From NCBI GenBank assembly GCA_006503475.1, contig RSEH01000085.1:99105-163104 (forward strand): DNA of 64,000 bases, read 5' to 3'. Below are positions 7,091 through 64,000 of the stretch, one piece after another. This stretch comes from Stentor roeselii (lineage: Eukaryota; Ciliophora; Heterotrichea; Heterotrichida; Stentoridae). Made by a program: the position numbers and the translations under genes. Below the pieces are notes generated by a model. That model did not search any database. It worked only from the letters and a program-made list of their open reading frames with translations, and was not told where the DNA came from. The number at the start of each line of letters is the position of its first letter. The first letter of the stretch is position 1.

Positions 7091-7444
7091 TTAGGATTCT
7101 GATAATGATTTCATTATTTTCAAGTGGTTTAGAAGGCTGGGAAACTGGTCGCTTTCGTCGGCTGGCTTGTCCCAGTTCCAGTATCTGAGATCTGAAAATG
7201 ATCCGGTTACTCGAAGGTCAGTCGCTCCTTCGGATATTAGACCTTTTATTTGATCGGGCAGTTTTATTTCTTGACCTTGGAGCTTTCTTCCTAATAATGA
7301 ACCTTCGCTACCGTCTGGAATGTAACCTTGTGAAGTGACTTCACCATTGAAATCGATTATACAAGGCAAAAACTTTACTTGCTTTTCTGATAGTTCGCTA
7401 AATTTTATAGTTCCTATTTTCATCGGTTTATTATCGCAGTGCAT
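7091..7444 (-). CDS. RNASEH2C: Ribonuclease H2 subunit C-like protein
   Basis: This small protein resembles the non-catalytic subunit C of RNase H2, which helps remove ribonucleotides from DNA. Supporting motifs are FLPCIIDFNGE near the N-terminus (family: LPC.i..nG), GYIPDGSEGSLLGRKLQGQEIKLP (family: yF.p......rGr.L.Geev.lP) and a C-terminal region ending WNWDKP. The longest frame gives 117 residues; an alternative ATG at base 7423 (MKIGTIKF, 110 residues) is closer to an AATAA context and may be the real start. Divergence is high, so the call rests on two motifs and size. Confidence 0.7.
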   Translation of the reverse strand: MHCDNKPMKIGTIKFSELSEKQVKFLPCIIDFNGEVTSQGYIPDGSEGSLLGRKLQGQEIKLPDQIKGLISEGATDLRVTGSFSDLRYWNWDKPADESDQFPSLLNHLKIMKSLSES

Positions 7445-53742: not shown

Positions 53743-54595
53743 TGTATTAATTTTTGCAATAGTTGAAGTTAGAGGGTTCATTATTTTATTGGCTTATTTA
53801 AGTAAAAAGGTAAAGAAATACTACTTTTAGGCACTATTGAGAATAATAAGTAGAAAATATTAAAGATTTAGCTATAGTTAACTACTTTTTAGATAGAATT
53901 CAAAATTTAATTTAAATTATTTGGTTAAGAAGTTCATTTAATTAAGAGTGATCATTTGTAATGCTTGAAAGTTAAGCATTGAGTGTTAGGGTAGAGCAAG
54001 GTTTGTGAGGTTTTTTTTTTTCTGGAAAAAAAACTTACAGGGTGCATAACTTTAGTATTTTAAAATTCTTTGAGTGATATCATCATAGAGTATAAATTAT
54101 TATGTGATAATATTAAGATACTTTGGATAATTTAATCTTCTATTAAGTGAAATCAAGTCCTAGAAGATTTCATAATTTTAGTTAAATCATTATTTCATAA
54201 AGTGAAAGATTTTCTAATTATTAAGCTCAAGATTGACAAATAGAAGCGGTATAGGAAATTTGTGATGATTCCGGCATGAATGATAAAATTTTCAACATTC
54301 TAAAAATATTTTCAGTTTCAATTTCTTTCCATTTTAAACTAGATCGAAAATATGCTTGTCTCACCAACACTTAAACCAATTTAAGAAACTACTCAAGCAT
54401 AATTTTATCAATTGTTGATTTTTTTATATGAAATATTCGAATTTGACCATTCAAAGCGATTTGAATTCTTTTGTTTAGTTATTGTTTTAGTAAAATGTCT
54501 CATTTATAATAGGATGAGGAAAGTCTTGATTTAAAAAACCACTAGTTTAAAGATAATTTAGAAGAAAAACCTTTGAATTGTAAAAAATTACTAAT
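53743..54595. other. Start of the gene-poor subtelomere
   Basis: These 853 AT-rich bases have no gene. At about 53982-53991 the plus strand contains GTGTTAGGGT, a perfect fragment of the telomere repeat in the same orientation as the chromosome end. A poly-T run then meets a poly-A run (about 54010-54030), forming a possible hairpin. Confidence 0.4.
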
Positions 54596-54796
54596 TTATA
54601 AAGACATCTCTAATTCTTGAGGTATCTCATAAATAACTATGAGCTTACTTTGGTACTTCATTTGGATTTTCATACGTTTAAGTGTACATAATTTTTTTTC
54701 AAATTTCTGAAATGTTAATTTCGAATGACTAAGCCTTAGGTCTGAATCCCAAAAAGTTTCTTTCTGAATAGCTCGCCTTGAAGGTACACAGCCCAT
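54596..54796 (-). CDS. MGC-family small acylated protein, copy 1
   Basis: This 66-residue protein begins MGCVPSRRAIQK, a Met-Gly-Cys-x-x-Ser start that fits N-myristoylation at Gly2 and palmitoylation at Cys3, as in SH4 domains of Src-family kinases. A Lys-rich middle leads to the shared tail YQSKLIVIYEIPQELEMSL. The frame is open four residues upstream (an ATG at 54808), but every paralogue starts at the MGC methionine, so 54796 is preferred. It is the most telomere-distal of six copies. Its function is unknown; attachment to a membrane is inferred. Confidence 0.72.
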   Translation of the reverse strand: MGCVPSRRAIQKETFWDSDLRLSHSKLTFQKFEKKLCTLKRMKIQMKYQSKLIVIYEIPQELEMSL

Positions 54797-56733
54797 TATT
54801 ATAATCAATTATTTAATGGAAATCAATACATTCACTTATATTTACTTTAAAGGTATAATAAATAATGGAATAATTTTCAAATTTAACTCGGAGAGATTTA
54901 TAAATATTTGAAATAAAGAAAAATAGACTAATTCACTCAAAGTAATAATTTTTTCTAATCGCTTAAGTCTTTATAGACCAACTAAGTGTTTTTTACCTAA
55001 ATTATCCTTTTTCAAGCATTCTCTCAGCTATATTGTTAAGTAACTAGAATTATGAAAAAAAAAGTTTTTTTCAAGAAAAAATTGTCTTTCGAGGCCAATT
55101 TCCTTTTAATATGTTCTTTTAGGGGTACTTAGGAAATTTTAGGGCATTCAAGGACTGATTTGAAATTCGGTAACAATGTTTCTTACCTAATTATAGTAAT
55201 GGCTGATATATAAACAGTTAACAAAATGAATATGGGAGAGATGAAAATGCTAACTGCTTGGGTTGACTTGAAATTCTGTTGCATCTATGTTGAGAAAGCA
55301 TCCAAAATTTTAAAATTTGATTAATTTAGCTTAGTTTTATATAATAAAGAAATTTTGCGGTTTGATAAAGAAAAGATTATGTTTTCAGAATGGAAAATAT
55401 GATGGCTCTAATCTTTTTCCTGATATGAATGAGAGATTTTTTCAGAGGCATCATAAAAAATAATCCTGCAACTAAATTACGATTGATGAGAATTAGAGAG
55501 ATGAATTTCTAATTCTTTATCTTGGATTTAGCTGATTCAAGGTAAATTTATTTAGGAGAGCTTTCACTGTATATAAAGGATTTCAAAAGAGTAATCTTGC
55601 AACAATAATCGCATAATAATTATCCTATATTTTAATAAAAATTCTTAACCAAAACTTCAGCAAGGTTCTATGTAATGATCCTCATTAATATCCTTTGCTT
55701 AATACTGAGAGATTCAGCCTTATTCATGATTCACTTAACTTTCTTACCAAAAATTTTAGTGAAAAATGTCTGAGATTTATTCTTACAACTAGTAAAATTT
55801 ATAAAACCTCGAACAAACATAATCCTAAAAATTTTGAAGATGTTAATTTAAATTAATATCCCCTTAAATCTCGAATTAAGTGAATATAGATTATTCTCGC
55901 AGTGAAGACTAAAATCATTCTTTATTAAAATCAAAATTTGATTAAAAATATTTATAGTTATCAGACCAATCCTTTAAATTATATTTACTTGTCTAAATTC
56001 TGTAAATCAACTGGAAAGCTATAGTTTGATATAAATGTTATGTCAAATTATATTAAGAAAGAGTAATTAAAGACAGATTTCATTATCTTTAATTCTAAAA
56101 AGCACCCTTGCTTAATACATCTAGTTTTGGCTTATATGAATTCAAAAAACTCTAATATTTTTTTCTTTCATAATGTTTTAAATAATATTTCAAACCTCAC
56201 TGATAAAATTTTTGATTTCTATAAATCTATTTGGATTGATGAACTATTAATCGAATGAGGGTTTCTCTGTTAATATTTGAATAATCTGGATGAATTTCAG
56301 AAAAAGTTCATTAAAGAACCACTCCAAAAAAGATTTTTTGTAAATATTTAAGATGATTAAAGTTTCTTAGTAAAATACAAGGAAAGGATTTACAAATCAA
56401 ACAGAACATTTAAATATTGAATGAATTAGACTTTTTAGTACATTAAGTAAGTATCGATGTTTTATTCAACTATACCTGATTAAAGTTGTTGAATATTTTA
56501 GAAATTATGATGGAAATCATCTTAAAGTAATTTTAAACTTTTTATAAAATTTTAGAATAAACATGCTAAGTGAAACAAAATTATGAAACCATAACTTTGA
56601 ATATTTGATGATTATTACTATTACAAAATTTTCAGTATTTCTCACACCCAAATTTACCTACCCATTAAAAATGATTAAAACTCTAAAATCATCATAAAAC
56701 TTTAAAAATCTTTAGATCTTAATTCTAAATAGT
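54797..56733. other. AT-rich spacer between MGC copies 1 and 2
   Basis: These 1937 bases contain no credible gene. AAAAGCACCC occurs near 56097-56106; the same ten-mer recurs near 59896 and 60881. Confidence 0.4.
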
Positions 56734-56946
56734 TTAAAATGATACCTCTAATTCTAAAGGTGTCTCGTATATCACCAAAAGTTTGCTTTTATGTTTTTTC
56801 AGTACTCTCATAGATCTCTTGCAGGATTCGAGATTGTTTAAATATACCTTATCAGTTTTATTTAACTTGATCGTATTTCTTGATTGTAGGCATGCATCTC
56901 CGTTGGTATCTTTTTGTGTGATTCTAAACGAAGGTATGCAGCCCAT
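56734..56946 (-). CDS. MGC-family small acylated protein, copy 2
   Basis: This 70-residue protein starts MGCIPSFRITQK and ends with HKSKLLVIYETPLELEVSF, the clearest version of the family tail. The middle (SRNTIKLNKTDKVYLNNLESCKRSMRVL) is basic and variable. The ATG follows ATTTATA, the usual context for genes here. Copy 3 lies only 45 bases upstream of its ATG on the same strand, so the two form a tight pair. Confidence 0.75.
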   Translation of the reverse strand: MGCIPSFRITQKDTNGDACLQSRNTIKLNKTDKVYLNNLESCKRSMRVLKKHKSKLLVIYETPLELEVSF

Positions 56947-56991
56947 TATAAATATGTTAATAAAAAAATTTATCCTAACTCTTTAAGATAT

Positions 56992-57210
56992 TTATTGAAA
57001 AGTTAAAGATGATTCGTCCTCTAAGGGTGTTTCAGGAATAATATTCAAAAAACTTTGGAAACTGTTAATTTTTTCTGAATTGCTTGATAAAGAAGTTGAT
57101 TTACTGAAGTTGATTATTCTAGAGTCCGATTTTTTGAATTTGAAAACCACAATTTGGGTTTCGGTAAAGCGGCCTTTGTTTTGAGTCTTGTGTGGTGGAA
57201 TACAGCCCAT
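56992..57210 (-). CDS. MGC-family small acylated protein, copy 3 (divergent tail)
   Basis: This 72-residue protein starts MGCIPPHKTQNK. The MGCIP start is conserved, but the Ser5/Ser6-type position that favours myristoylation is replaced by Pro-His. The tail (FLNIIPETPLEDESSLTFQ) keeps the PETPLE core of the family but lacks the KLLVIY strand. It may be a functionally divergent copy or an early stage of decay. It is adjacent to copy 2. Confidence 0.65.
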   Translation of the reverse strand: MGCIPPHKTQNKGRFTETQIVVFKFKKSDSRIINFSKSTSLSSNSEKINSFQSFLNIIPETPLEDESSLTFQ

Positions 57211-58786
57211 TTAATTATTGTTTATTACGTCATGGATATTTCACTAAAATTTCATTTTCTTCTGATAGTTGGAACTATTTTGTGCATTTTTATTGACTAA
57301 TTGAAATATGTTAGATTCAAATGTAACGGGAATTAGATTCTAAATTTTGGAATATTATTGAAGAAATTTCAAAGAATCCTTGATTGATGGGTAAACTTAT
57401 CAGAATGCTATAAATATTGTTTCAGCTTCGTTTTTTACATGAATATCTTGTTATATTAATTCTTTATCGTTAATTAAGGCCTTTAAAAGTAAAATTTAGA
57501 GTTTATTACACATCCTGAAAAAAATTAGTTAACAAAGATGCTATTATAGATATTTTATCACATTTTCAACTAATTATCCTTTATACTCAGAAAATCCTTC
57601 CATTCTTGGTCTTCTAATTTCTGATCTATGATGTCCCTTCACTAAAAATATTTTATCATAGAAATTTGTATCTAAATCATTTAAGCTAGACTGATTAACT
57701 TCAAAATTAGAAAAATATTTAAGAAGATTTTGGATTTACTCATAAGAAATGATGAGATGTTTTTTTAGTAAGCTCGTGAAAAAGTCACTATAGAGTTAAA
57801 AAAAGTGCTCATATTTTAGAGTAGTCTAACACTTAAATCAATTAAAAGTAAGGTATCTAGTCCAATTCTTCGTCATCCTCCATGATGATAAAACCATTTC
57901 CTTTAAGCAAAATTTATTAGTCTCTCATAAGTCAAGTATTTAAAGAATCTTGTAAATTATTTAGTCCTCTTAAGAGATGCTTTGCTTTATCAGTTCTGAT
58001 ATTTCAAATAACCTTTAAGGAAGATAGCTTTTCTGAAGGGGTTGAAGATAGAGTAGGTGAATTATTGAAAAATTATAGCATCATTTAGAAAGGTTTGAAA
58101 TTATATAAAAACTACTGGAATTCTTAGAGTTACTTGGTTAATAGTAATGCTTGATTGAATATAAGTATCATGGCCTTGGTTTCTATGATTACCTTGGAAT
58201 AAAGCACTCTAGTTATGATAAATCAATTACCAAATAAAATTTCTAGTTCCAGATAAAAAATCTCAGAATCTATATAAAAAGTCCAAAATTATCTTTGTTA
58301 GATGAGATATATTCAGATGCTATAAAAATCTATATTAATTCGAACAATAATTCCCAAAATGATAGAGATTTGGTCAAATGTCTTTCGTTTTTGAAACCTT
58401 TAAATTGGTACTTCAAGGCAAATATTTACCTAAATCAGAATTTATGAATACAACCTACATTATAATTTTACATTCACTTCCCAAAAACCAAAAACATTCA
58501 CTAATAAACCAAATAAAACAAATCTCAATTTACTTTAAACCTCTTCAGTCCTCTTCTTGTTCTACCAGAAATATATTCATAAAAAAATTTCCTTAAAGTC
58601 TCATTTCCAAAGCTTCTCAAATAAACATCCTAAAAATCTTCAACATTTGAAATCCTTTAAATGATGAAATGCAAGATTGGGTAATTTCACAAAATTCAAA
58701 ATTTTATATATGGCTAAGAAAATGACTGAAAATTGAAAAAGATTTTAAACTTTACTTTAATTATTGTTAGTAAAACTCGAGATTAA
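57211..58786. other. AT-rich spacer between MGC copies 3 and 4
   Basis: These 1576 bases have no supportable gene. A 72-codon plus-strand frame at 58378-58596 is low in complexity and without a start context. Confidence 0.4.
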
Positions 58787-58998
58787 TTATAAAGACATCT
58801 CGAATTCTGAAGGTGCCTCGTAAATCACTAAGAGTCGACTTTTGTGGTATTTTAGAACTTTGATAAAATTTTGTCTTTTTTTTTACTTTGATTTTCCTTC
58901 GTAATTATTTTTCTTTCTTGTTTGAGTTGTTGGGTATTAATTTTACAGTCAGTCTCTATTGCTTTGTGTGTCTGTTTGCTTACTGGTACGCAGCCCAT
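58787..58998 (-). pseudogene. MGC-family copy 4, frameshifted at a homopolymer
   Basis: It starts MGCVPVSKQTHK and, in a second frame, ends with KYHKSRLLVIYEAPSEFEMSL, the family tail. The first frame stops after about 51 residues. The two frames meet near a run of nine A residues on the coding strand (T run at about 58876-58884). No 15-16 base GT..AG intron explains the switch. It is either a young pseudogene or a homopolymer-length error in the assembly. Ser6 is present for myristoylation. Confidence 0.7.
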
Positions 58999-60447
58999 TG
59001 TATTTATTAAAGAAATTAATGGAAATCATTTCATTTTTGATGTAATTTATAATTTCCACTGTATTTTACATATAAATGGTTTACTAATATCAAGATGAAA
59101 TTATTTTCTTGGGATAGGCTTAGGGATGGAGTATTTATTGCTATTAGAGTTGAGAAAATAGGTTAATTCATGAAATAGAATGATTTATCAATTAGAATTA
59201 AATTTAAACTAATAAATTGAATGAATCCACTCATAAAAGAATTTTGCACTTTTTCAAACAAAAAATATCGGCTTAATTCTCATAATCCTGTATAAAAGCC
59301 AAAAAATTATTGAATCAACTTAAAGTTTTGTTTGTTTAGGCTGTTCTAGCCTTCTAATCTCATAAAAATATGAAAGCCGATCATATTTTTTTGGTTAAGC
59401 CTAAATCCGAATTCTAAAAGATTGAAAGAGCCGATATAATTAAAATCAGCCAATAACAAGAAGTATTTTTACTGGCTTAGAAGTAATATTTACTACTGAA
59501 TTGTAACTTTAATAATATTTATGGTATTCAAGAGTCGGTGGATTCAAAGTCTTTAGCTTTAGAAAGACTGATATTGACAATCTCAAATACTGTAATAAAA
59601 AATTCATTAGAAATGAAATTTTGGTAAAATGGTTATTTTTGTATTATACTTAGTTAGATATCGACTCTTCTTTAAACACCTCATCTTAAAATATATATAA
59701 TTTTATAAAAAATGATCAAATAAATCTATCAATCGGCTACTAGCCTTGATTCTCGAATCAAACTTTGAAAGATCATCATTTCACAATCATGAAAATAAAA
59801 GAAATTATTTGATAATGCCTATGATGTGTTGATTTTAAGAGCATTATTTGTTTAAGCCTTATATGGGTTATATTTTTGAAATCACAATAACTATTAAAAG
59901 CACCCTTTTTTTGATTGTGTTTGGGAGTATTTAGCATCGATTTATAAAACAATTTTCCATATGCAACAATTCTTTTAATACGATGTGTTCCAAATCTTGT
60001 TTCTTGCTTTTGTTGTTAAGTATCCGCTAATTAATCTTCAATTTAAAGATTCTCTTCGTAAATTTGACACTAATGATTATTTCTGTCGAATAAGCGTGGA
60101 TTTAAATTATTTAATTGATGATTTCAAACTACAACCTAGATCCGAGTTTAATTATATAAATCTCTGTCTTATATAGTTCTGGTTAATTTATTACTTATGT
60201 CAATTTTGATAGCATAATATATTACTAAATAATTAAGTAATAGGATTATTGAAAGAACTAATAAAAGATTTAGCACTGCTAAGAAGGTAGAAATTGAGTT
60301 TATTATAAAATTTCAAGTTCTCTATGAAAAATTAGATTAATTTGCTCATCACTTAAATTTAAGTAATTTTATATGAGAATTGGAAGATTTATCTTTCAAA
60401 ATTTGATGAACTTCAAGGGAGAGAATAAATATTACAAATATTTTAAG
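58999..60447. other. AT-rich spacer between MGC copies 4 and 5
   Basis: These 1449 bases include AAAAGCACCC near 59896. A plus-strand frame at 59985-60176 has somewhat gene-like composition (KDSLRKFDTNDYF) but no ATG, so it is at most a fragment. Confidence 0.35.
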
Positions 60448-60660
60448 TTAGATTGACTTATCAAGCTCTAAAGGTGATTCGTATATTACTAGAAGTTTGC
60501 TTTGATAGTTTGTAAAAATCTTCTTGAATTTCTGTCTTGAAAAAGAAGAATCTGAATGATTGGTTTGAGATTTAGCCATCTGATAGAAATAACTCGACTT
60601 GAATTTTGAATTATTTGCTGGGAATTTTCGAATAGCTTTGCACGGAGATATGCAGCCCAT
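60448..60660 (-). CDS. MGC-family small acylated protein, copy 5
   Basis: This 70-residue protein starts MGCISPCKAIRK, with Cys3 and an extra Cys7 that could both be palmitoylated. It ends YQSKLLVIYESPLELDKSI, the family tail. The middle is Lys/Ser/Phe-rich (FKSSYFYQMAKSQTNHSDSS). The same strand and start pattern as the other copies support a functional gene. Its function is unknown. Confidence 0.74.
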   Translation of the reverse strand: MGCISPCKAIRKFPANNSKFKSSYFYQMAKSQTNHSDSSFSRQKFKKIFTNYQSKLLVIYESPLELDKSI

Positions 60661-62286
60661 TAAAATGAATTTAAAATGGAATCGAACATTTTAGATTAGA
60701 ACTTATTATTTAAAATTTTGGGTCAAATAAACCAAAAGGCTTGAATTTTTTTTTCAGATAAGTAATCATATTTTTATCATCCTCTTAATGCTTTTGGTAT
60801 AAGAAAAAAACAATAATTTGATGATTTAAGGCAATCTTTATAAATACGTAAATCAAAATAATCTTTTTCATTTTGTACTAAAAGCACCCAATTTTATATA
60901 AATAGTTTAAATTATTATTTCTAGGTTGTTAAAACTTAAATAGAAGTGATGCTATTGCAAATAGAACATTAATCGTTCAATGAGCACTCTAGAAAGTGAA
61001 AAATCTTGCTTTCATAAATTGATGAGTAAATTTTACTAATAAATGGTAATTTGTATAAGGCTACTCAAAATGTGAATAAATTAAGTATCTAAGTCATAGC
61101 TAAATACATGCTATGATATTACAAAAATGATATTCAGGCAAGCATTGATTAATTTGAGTATATCTAAAGAATACTTTTGGTGTGAAGAATAATTATACAT
61201 GGAATTTTCTTAAAATGTATCTGTATGGAAGTTTTTATATTATTGAAGTTAATAAATTCACTAGTTTCATAGAATAAACTTGATTATCTACTCATAATTA
61301 AAACTTTTTATGTCAAAATATCATTTCATAAAAATGAAAATTAGAGTATTTATTATAACATCAAAGTAAATAAGTGAAAATTGCTTTATGTATCACTAAT
61401 AATTTTTATTGATTTAATGAATACTTTAAAAATCCTTGAACTTAATTATATATTCCTATTTTTCTTTCCTTTAAATAATTATAAATAACTACATCAAATT
61501 TTTTGATATGGCTTCCATTTATGGAAAGTTCTAGATAAGGAAATGGAGGCAAACTTATTTTATGATGAATTTAAAAATCAAATCTATTAAAGCCCTCTTC
61601 TAAAATCATCAAACTCTAAAGATTTATAATCTTTATTTAAAACTCTTTAAATTTTAATAAAAATCTTCGAAATCATTAATTTTCGAATATTGTTGAATTT
61701 TCTTTGTTTTCTGATACAGTCAGGATAAGAACTGGAAAAAAAAGGGTTGAAACTTTCATCAAGTCTTCTAAAATTTAAATTTTTTGAGATGGATAAAATA
61801 TAAAACCATATTTTCAAGACATTCAATAAATTTATCATATGCATACCAGGCTGTACATTCGAAATCCGTCTTCCAAATGAAATACTTTTGAAAATTAGGA
61901 AAGTTTTCAATCCAATTAGGTCTCCATACTTAAATCATAAGAAAATAAATAAAAAAATCCTTCTAAGCCCTATAGTCATCCTAAACCTTCCAAATAATTG
62001 AAAATCCTTTCCCTAAAACTCATTAAAACACCATATCAAAGCAAGCAAGTCCTTTATACTTGAATTCAAACTACTCAAATACTTAAATATCCTGAATAAC
62101 CATTAATCAAAATTCAACGTCTTGATACTGAAGCTAAAATATCTAAACTACTTCGACACTAGAATCAAAAAATAATTTGAATTACTTAATTAGGCATGTC
62201 AAATGATTGAATGGTTTTGGAAAATGGTGAACGAAACAAAAATTTCTAATATCTGGATTAAATTCTACTCAAAAATCAATATTTAC
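60661..62286. other. AT-rich spacer between MGC copies 5 and 6
   Basis: These 1626 bases contain no credible gene. AAAAGCACCC occurs near 60881-60890. Confidence 0.4.
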
Positions 62287-62496
62287 TTATGCAGACAACT
62301 CTTGCTCAATCGAACACTCATCAATTACTTTTAGGTCACTTTTGAACTTGATTACTTTTTTCACGAAATTTGTTCGAGCCTGAGAAGTGCCTGAAGTTCT
62401 GCCTCTTGTCCTAAACTTTTTACTGAGTTTCAAGATTGTTCCTGAGTCATCATCGATCGTTTGCCGAATGAACCTTCTTGAAGGAATACAGCCCAT
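62287..62496 (-). CDS. MGC-family small acylated protein, copy 6 (telomere-proximal)
   Basis: This 69-residue protein starts MGCIPSRRFIRQ, close to copy 1, but has the most divergent tail (FKSDLKVIDECSIEQELSA), where VIYE becomes VIDE and LELE becomes EQEL. The middle is Arg/Ser/Thr-rich (FRTRGRTSGTSQAR) instead of Lys-rich, and its base composition is clearly less AT-rich than the spacers. The ATG follows TTATAA. It lies 1.4 kb from the telomere repeats. Confidence 0.72.
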   Translation of the reverse strand: MGCIPSRRFIRQTIDDDSGTILKLSKKFRTRGRTSGTSQARTNFVKKVIKFKSDLKVIDECSIEQELSA

Positions 62497-63921
62497 TTAT
62501 AATAAGAAAAAATGACTATGAAATGCAGGGAAAACTGCTTTTTGATAACTAAAAGTTAAGAAATTTATTTGTTTATGACTTTAGTTTTGGATTTTTTCTT
62601 TTTTTTTAGTGGAAGTGATTTGGCTGTTAATTTGGAAATTATTATTTTTTATTTACATAATTTTTATTTTGAATTTTAATGATTTTGCCATTGGTTGTTT
62701 GAATTGTTAAGGTATTTATAAATGAAATTCAATTTAAGGAGAACTATTTATATTTGATTTATGGTTAAAATATAGTTAATAGTTTTATTTAACACTTAAT
62801 AAAGAAGTAAAATTTTACCTAAATAACTATCTGTTTACATTTTCAGTCTCTTTTCAGATCTACCATTTTCTATTCTTAGATGAAGCAAGGAAAAATTAAA
62901 TAAAACTAAGAGTTATGAATTTTTTTAAATAATCTAATACTTCATTCATTAGATGAAAAAATTATTATGTTTTTCTTGCCAATACCAAAAAATTCTTTTG
63001 GTGAAATCCTTCAGTCATACTTTTTCTTGATGATACTTTTGTTAAACCTTTTTGGAAAATTTTTTAAAGGATAAACTTTTATAATATTATGGAATGGTTT
63101 TATTGACAGCTATATGAAGATATGTATGGCTTCTTAGTTAGAAATCAGCTCTTGAAAGAATAAACAATTTATTAAGGAAATGAACTTTTAGTCAGCCAGT
63201 CAAATCACCATCTTTGCTGAAAAAAGTAATCTCTTGAAGAGTTTCAATTCAGATGATTATTGAAATGTAATTGTTATTGGAATAATATAACCTACAATTA
63301 GAAACTGAAAATAAGGAAAAAATTCGGGATTCTGGAGAAAATTAAAGATCAAGGAAATTAATCCTTTTTGAAAATAATAATGGGAATAGAAAAAACCGTC
63401 TAACACAATGATTGACAGAAAAATAACTATGTCAAACACATTTATACTTTACTATGACAAGCGATAGATTTCGAGCAATAGAGCAATTTTTATGTATAGT
63501 TGATCAGTCAAATTCAGACAATTAAACTGAATTTAAAAATATCAATTCATACCCAAGAAAATCACTAGCATTTAATGATCCGCAAGCCAATGCCACTCGA
63601 TAAATCAATTATTGATTCAAGAACAAGCTTATGCTCATATTGAAATTTTCAAAGAAAAAATTATTTTCTAACTACGAATGGCATCTTCGCATAAGAGTCG
63701 ATTTAGTTTAGCTCATAGTTAATTATTTTACTTCCTTGTTAAATTTACGTACTTATAGTATGAAATGATGCTGATGCATCCTATAGGTGCAGTTACCAGG
63801 AGCTAGTTAAAATTTATAAGGTTTAATTAGTATCAAAACAATAGAGAATCTCAGCTCTATTTTCATTTTTTTTTTGATTTGGCTCCTATTATTTATTATC
63901 TTAAAAATTTAAGTCTTAATT
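62497..63921. other. Terminal AT-rich subtelomere
   Basis: These 1425 bases lie between MGC copy 6 and the telomere. No gene, repeat array or subtelomeric satellite was seen. Confidence 0.45.
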
Positions 63922-64000
63922 TAAGGGTGTTAGGGTGTTAGGGTGTTAGGGTGTTAGGGTGTTAGGGTGTTAGGGTGTTAGGGTGTTAGGGTGTTAGGGT
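63922..64000 (+). repeat. Telomere: (TTAGGGTG)n
   Basis: Nine to ten tandem copies of the octamer TTAGGGTG (a permutation of TGTTAGGG, CCCTAACA on the other strand) run to the last base. The first unit is imperfect (TAAGGGTG). The G-rich strand points 5' to 3' outward, the orientation of a true chromosome end. This octamer is the repeat reported for heterotrich ciliates (recalled from the literature). The window end truncates the array, so its full length is unknown. Confidence 0.95.

Follow-up and report, generated by a model that had tools for sequence, protein, structure and literature searches.

A cluster of small genes beside a telomere

The 64,000 nucleotides analysed here (the window) form the end of contig RSEH01000085.1 of the ciliate Stentor roeselii (assembly GCA_006503475.1; 44,391,514 bases in 522 contigs), where copies of a gene for a very small protein with a Met-Gly-Cys (MGC) start lie close to the telomere. 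With contigs denoted by the letter C and a number, the window is C510:99105-163104; the copies are named by the higher of their two window positions, and all features are collected in Table 1. The unit of the telomere, TTAGGGTG, has 8 bases; its other strand is a permutation of CCCTAACA, which has been published as the telomere repeat of Blepharisma (PMC9942806). According to the same source, UGA encodes tryptophan in Blepharisma stoltei. Here, 21 TGG codons and no TGA occur in one frame of 2,062 codons, and all 10 full-length family frames end in TAA, so that the standard code fits, as it would in a heterotrich that uses this code, such as Stentor.

The original prediction, made from the letters of this DNA, described six genes of 66-72 residues that begin MGC(I/V) and mostly share the tail K-L-x-V-I-Y-E-x-P-x-E-L-E, and held them to be the only convincing genes in the last 10 kb before a telomere. 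The telomere is indeed there, the six minus-strand starts lie where they had been placed, 1.4-9.3 kb from it, and the MGC[IV] start holds in 6/6. Five of the six copies are open under the standard code, with 66-72 amino acids (aa); the copy at 58998 is not intact. It meets a stop after 48 codons, and its tail, KSRLLVIYEAPSEFEMSL, stands out of frame beyond a run of nine A. This nine-base homopolymer occupies positions 58876-58884, between the 48-codon frame and the tail. The break may reflect a pseudogene or a sequence error, which the sequence does not tell apart; an intron was rejected as the explanation, since by eye no GT..AG intron of 15-16 bases was seen that would restore the frame of the tail.

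The tail is less uniform than had been claimed. Its full string occurs in two of the five open copies (56946 and 54796), copy 60660 lacks only the last letter, and in copies 62496 and 57210 nothing is left of it beyond the core L-x-[VI]-I-x-E, a core that all five open copies possess. The core stands above chance because, among the 54 standard-code open reading frames (ORFs) of the window that encode 50-90 aa, exactly the five open copies carry L.[VIT]I.E within their last 25 residues, while shuffled family proteins do so at a rate of 0.0048. Between positions 53760 and 63923 there are eight standard-code ORFs of at least 50 aa that begin with ATG; five are family copies, and the other three (72, 53 and 65 aa) have neither an MGC start nor the tail core. 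Introns not being considered, this supports the view that no other convincing gene lies in the region. A hexamer coding scan was uninformative: just one copy out of the six received a score, and its opposite strand scored higher.

Table 1. Positions of the telomere, the family members and clusters, and the kinases with the same start. Rows without a contig number give window positions.
Feature	Position	Strand	Description
Telomere	63924..64000	+	9.6 copies of TTAGGGTG, closing contig C510
Family member 1	62287..62496	-	69 aa, MGCIPSRR...LKVIDECSIEQELSA; groups with C147:6792, P0004 and P0005
Family member 2	60448..60660	-	70 aa, MGCISPCK...LLVIYESPLELDKSI
Family member 3	58787..58998	-	frame-broken; the frame from the ATG has 48 codons, and the tail LLVIYEAPSEFEMSL is out of frame
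Family member 4	56992..57210	-	72 aa, diverged tail LNIIPETPLEDESS
Family member 5	56734..56946	-	70 aa, MGCIPSFR...LLVIYETPLELEVSF; the member that P0001 matches best (54-55% identity)
Family member 6	54596..54796	-	66 aa, MGCVPSRR...LIVIYEIPQELEMSL
C510 cluster	six loci in the window	one strand	
C147 cluster	6792, 2065, 59, ~4954	one strand	69 aa; 72 aa; 19-codon fragment; relic
C167 cluster	50365, 49256, 48367	one strand	73 aa; 72 aa; 79 aa
MGC[IV]P protein kinases	C31:121574, C77:36551, C82:82635, C92:57525, C118:45045, C168:18026, C288:32141		5/7 with EF hands

Family members across the assembly

Searches with single proteins and with the start pattern revealed at least 13 family loci on three contigs: ten full-length frames, one frame break, one gene cut by a contig end and one relic. 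Scoring was confined to the top candidates of an initial pass, so that 13 is a lower bound. The proteins have 66-79 aa. The fragment at C147:59, truncated by the contig start, has 19 codons and no tail; its start and its position within the array are the only grounds for counting it as a member. In the relic of the same contig (4880-4954), a tail, KSDLKVINECSVEHEHS, follows a merely degraded start.

The cluster on C510 is the sole one shown to adjoin a telomere. On C147 the telomere is at the opposite end, and the end that carries the array breaks off inside a gene, without a telomere. The cluster on C167, about 20 kb from the right contig end (the last 653 bases of which were unread), is flanked by ordinary frames of 539 and 324 aa, and because it sits between ordinary genes the family is not inherently subtelomeric. 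A telomere-linked array, as originally proposed, is thus not supported as a property of the family, which is less telomeric than claimed. Telomere-linked expansion found no support either. On contigs up to C85 the listed telomere places mark at least 19 chromosome ends, and among the 22 genomic places that encode MGC[IV]P only C31:121574 and C82:82635 are on contigs with a listed end; both are kinases, more than 20 kb away. The MGC[IV]P places of the short family are confined to the three contigs.

The GC content of the clusters is 0.257, 0.257 and 0.276, against 0.358 in the rest of the window and 0.370 and 0.378 in adjacent DNA. The AT-rich stretches span window positions 53800-63920, C147:1-7700 and C167:47950-50650, the internal cluster included.

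Homologues outside the assembly

Profile searches of 5.8 billion proteins yielded five database proteins (P0001 to P0005), three of which are clearly distinct. P0001 (expectation value, E, 2.8e-15) and P0004 (E 3.1e-11) were found with queries from which they were absent; the search that gave P0004 also gave P0002 and P0003, and P0005 was found with a query that already contained P0004. P0002 and P0003, encoded on JGI contigs no longer than 10,187 bases, match two members from C167 at 72/73 and 72/72 residues and are therefore attributed to the same or a sister strain. P0001 is 54-55% identical to its best match in the window. P0004 and P0005 are 81% identical to each other, and each is 40-41% identical to copy 62496; they differ at 13 of 69 sites, mostly conservatively and without insertion or deletion, and their last 15 residues are identical. 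Assembly searches and BLAST gave no closer relatives of P0001 and P0004 in the assembly than these identities. Judging from these comparisons, P0001, P0004 and P0005 are proteins of other organisms or paralogues missing in this assembly. The original prediction held that a real family should have homologues elsewhere, and these three are such homologues.

A tree of eight rows separates copy 62496, C147:6792, P0004 and P0005 from copies 56946, 54796 and 60660 and P0001 with 100/100 support, in a selection of rows that favours the split, seven having been left out for long branches or as near-copies. In this tree P0001 does not stand beside its best match, copy 56946, and sits with copies 54796 and 60660 (86/87). 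The full tree of 15 rows is unresolved, with 0/11 inner branches starred, and does not recover the two groups.

A scan of genome contigs with P0004 gave ten pattern matches and no relative. Two candidates were rejected: the IMG/VR locus L082 is a match of only 21 residues in an interrupted frame, and C46:18389 (E 0.008) is part of an unrelated frame of 247 aa in which no such tail was seen. An open frame of 74 aa at C288:43643-43849 matches P0001 weakly (E 2.7) and is a possible further member; C476:133876, whose letters were unread, gave only a weak match (E 0.7).

Conservation of the two ends

All 14 aligned rows, two of which are near-copies of two others, have M1, G2 and C3 at the start and the same L, I and E in the tail. 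The tail motif is present in 15/15 rows, with its E 9-18 residues before the C-terminus. Residues 4-45 contain 7-11 Lys or Arg and 0-6 Asp or Glu, and the last 15 residues contain 3-6 acidic ones in 15/15 rows.

The ten full-length genes of the assembly were compared as 45 pairs for their proportions of synonymous (pS) and non-synonymous (pN) differences. With pS between 0.69 and 0.75 in every region, pN is 0.19 in residues 1-6 (pN/pS 0.27), 0.61 in residues 7-17 (0.82), 0.68 in the middle (0.95) and 0.40 in the 23 columns of the tail (0.54). The codons of the tail vary at the third position (ATT, ATA, ATC; GAA, GAG) around constant residues. Purifying selection on both ends and a freely varying middle, both anticipated earlier, agree with these values. 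The middles do differ among paralogues, as the word "diversifying" had implied, but the genes are better described as old duplicates with drifted middles.

The coding parts of ten copies align with a score of 21.7, against -1.9 to 1.6 for shuffles. For the 150 bases upstream of 11 copies the mean score of 10.85 falls inside the range of 20 shuffles (9.5-12.1), and a shared promoter was rejected on this ground. Because the ends are conserved within otherwise unrelated DNA, it is the function of the protein that appears to be preserved; judging from the substitution pattern, the copies are protein-coding genes of long standing in which both ends have been kept.

A start shared with protein kinases

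The start pattern ATGGGNTGYRTNCC occurs at 22 places in the genome and at none in a backward-read control. Nine of the 22 places are assigned to the family and seven to protein kinases (five with EF hands); one precedes cyclic-nucleotide-binding domains, two look like Met codons inside ABC-transporter-like frames and three are unassigned (C47, C201 and C515). The two places on C50, each apparently such an internal Met, were set aside, as were C201 and C515, whose frames, read without considering introns, have the start and no tail. The family profile matches the N-terminus of the C82 kinase over 38 positions (15.3 bits, E 0.0024); in the C47, C75 and C168 frames it matches the first 13-14 residues at 8.7-11.3 bits. 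Over the 1.5 kb read onward from the start of each kinase, the family tail had no listed match that reached 8 bits. The EF-hand kinases, which share the MGC[IV]P start with the family, are enzymes of 479-502 aa. MGC[IV]P thus looks like a common acylation start in this genome. Since seven protein kinases share it, the start alone is no hallmark of the family; from these matches, the hallmark is the MGC start combined with the tail.

The seven kinases suggest a set of membrane-tethered calcium-dependent kinases. Another kinase-like frame, on C46 (L074:2-1096), begins MGCGVSSQKK and lies beside an unrelated frame.

Known domains and other features of the window

The SH4 segments of Src-family kinases use a Met-Gly-Cys start for myristate and palmitate, and Met-Gly-Cys likewise occupies residues 1-3 in 14/14 family rows; unlike the Src family, the proteins described here have no SH3, SH2 or kinase domain after it. 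Searches of Pfam with 14 members (66-79 aa) detected none of these domains and no EF hands, the best match being to an unrelated family (E 0.039). The best matches in NCBIfam (E 0.12) and in the Protein Data Bank (E 0.2) were also unrelated proteins. Literature searches returned no title or abstract that describes such a family, and nothing that links Stentor with myristoylation and palmitoylation. These results agree with the original remark that no described family with this combination was known. The small proteins form a real family, apparently undescribed, more widespread and older than could be seen from the window.

A tRNA-Glu gene (anticodon ttc) at positions 7118-7198 is the sole tRNA that ARAGORN reported in the window, and an Rfam scan of the window gave nothing at the gathering score.

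Discussion

The best reading of this family, to which we give about even confidence, is that its members are adaptors, doubly acylated and tethered to a membrane, whose tail docks on a partner. From the invariance of the terminal residues we infer an anchor and a dock; lipidation, a disordered linker and an adaptor role are further inferences. The MGC[IVA] start is compatible with N-myristoylation at Gly2 and palmitoylation at Cys3, and these lipids would hold the protein at a membrane. After it comes a linker of about 40-45 residues that is basic, is not conserved and probably has no fold. The conserved C-terminal 23 residues or so, with the core L-x-[VIT]-I-x-E and then acidic residues, may bind a partner protein in the manner of a short peptide, so that the paralogues would offer the same dock at the same kind of membrane on different linkers. 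Several points weigh against this. A low-confidence AlphaFold model of nine rows (predicted TM-score 0.26, mean predicted local distance difference test 69) draws residues 7-55 and 64-69 as helices, and not as a loose linker and a strand-like tail. Synonymous sites are saturated, which makes pN/pS a contrast and not a calibrated rate. The family is known from DNA and predicted protein sequence alone, and the partner is hypothetical. Some members are dispensable, since one copy is frame-broken and another is a relic.

A similar layout has been described for the HASP and oHASP proteins of Leishmania, with clustered genes, acylation at Gly2 and a nearby Cys, conserved ends and a divergent centre; oHASP has its Cys at position 5 and hydrophilic amino-acid repeats (PMC2946902). 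Compared by description only, the Stentor family shares the clustered genes, the Gly2 and Cys and the conserved termini around a divergent middle, and differs in its Cys at position 3 and its hydrophobic-acidic tail. The proteins could thus form a membrane coat, in which both ends would serve lipid targeting and assembly or export, the middle would be a hydrophilic spacer and no specific docking partner would be needed. We consider this unlikely: a repeat finder run on the window detected tandem repeats in none of its coding copies, the hydrophobic-acidic motif of the tail is a tight one, and export is hypothetical. Small regulators or decoys of the kinases with the MGC[IV]P start, which would compete with them for membrane patches or bind them through the tail, are rather improbable. 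The division of the 22 MGC[IV]P places between family and kinases and the profile match to the C82 kinase speak for such a role, but an acylation start is shared by unrelated acylated proteins, and the kinase pieces gave no tail match.

The tail could also be a SUMO-interacting motif, for which an hXhh or hhXh consensus, often with acidic flanks, has been given (PMC8616421). The family has L-x-[VI]-I, which fits a core of I, V and L, in 13/15 rows, followed by its acidic and serine residues, and would then read sumoylated proteins from a position on the membrane. According to the same review, this degenerate motif has many matches that are not real (PMC8616421); it does not define a family, and the match here is too loose to prove anything. 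In 2/15 rows, one gene and an identical metagenome copy, the core is LGTI, with a T. Known proteins with such motifs are mostly nuclear, which further lowers a probability that we hold to be small. That the genes are non-functional, decaying remnants of a once larger family that are open by chance is the least likely of the alternatives, and very improbable. The broken frame at 58998 and the relic on C147, at about 4.95 kb, would fit decay, as would the fact that the genes are known only as sequence. Ten full-length frames with conserved ends at saturated synonymous divergence do not fit it, nor do outside homologues in both groups of the eight-row tree or the few, mostly conservative changes between P0004 and P0005.

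For the membrane-tethered adaptors a more specific and doubtful proposal may be added, namely that at the membrane they display an LxVIxE-acidic peptide that forms a strand and may be a SUMO-interacting motif, and that paralogues with different linkers would there sort or space one shared partner, possibly alongside the EF-hand kinases with an MGC start. Genes so short and AT-rich would easily be missed in ciliate annotations. If they are expressed, they would provide a compact model of a bare architecture of anchor, linker and dock, and the defined tail could serve as bait for its partner at the membrane. Our work also suggests that MGC[IV]P is a membrane-address start common to kinases and mini-proteins in this genome.

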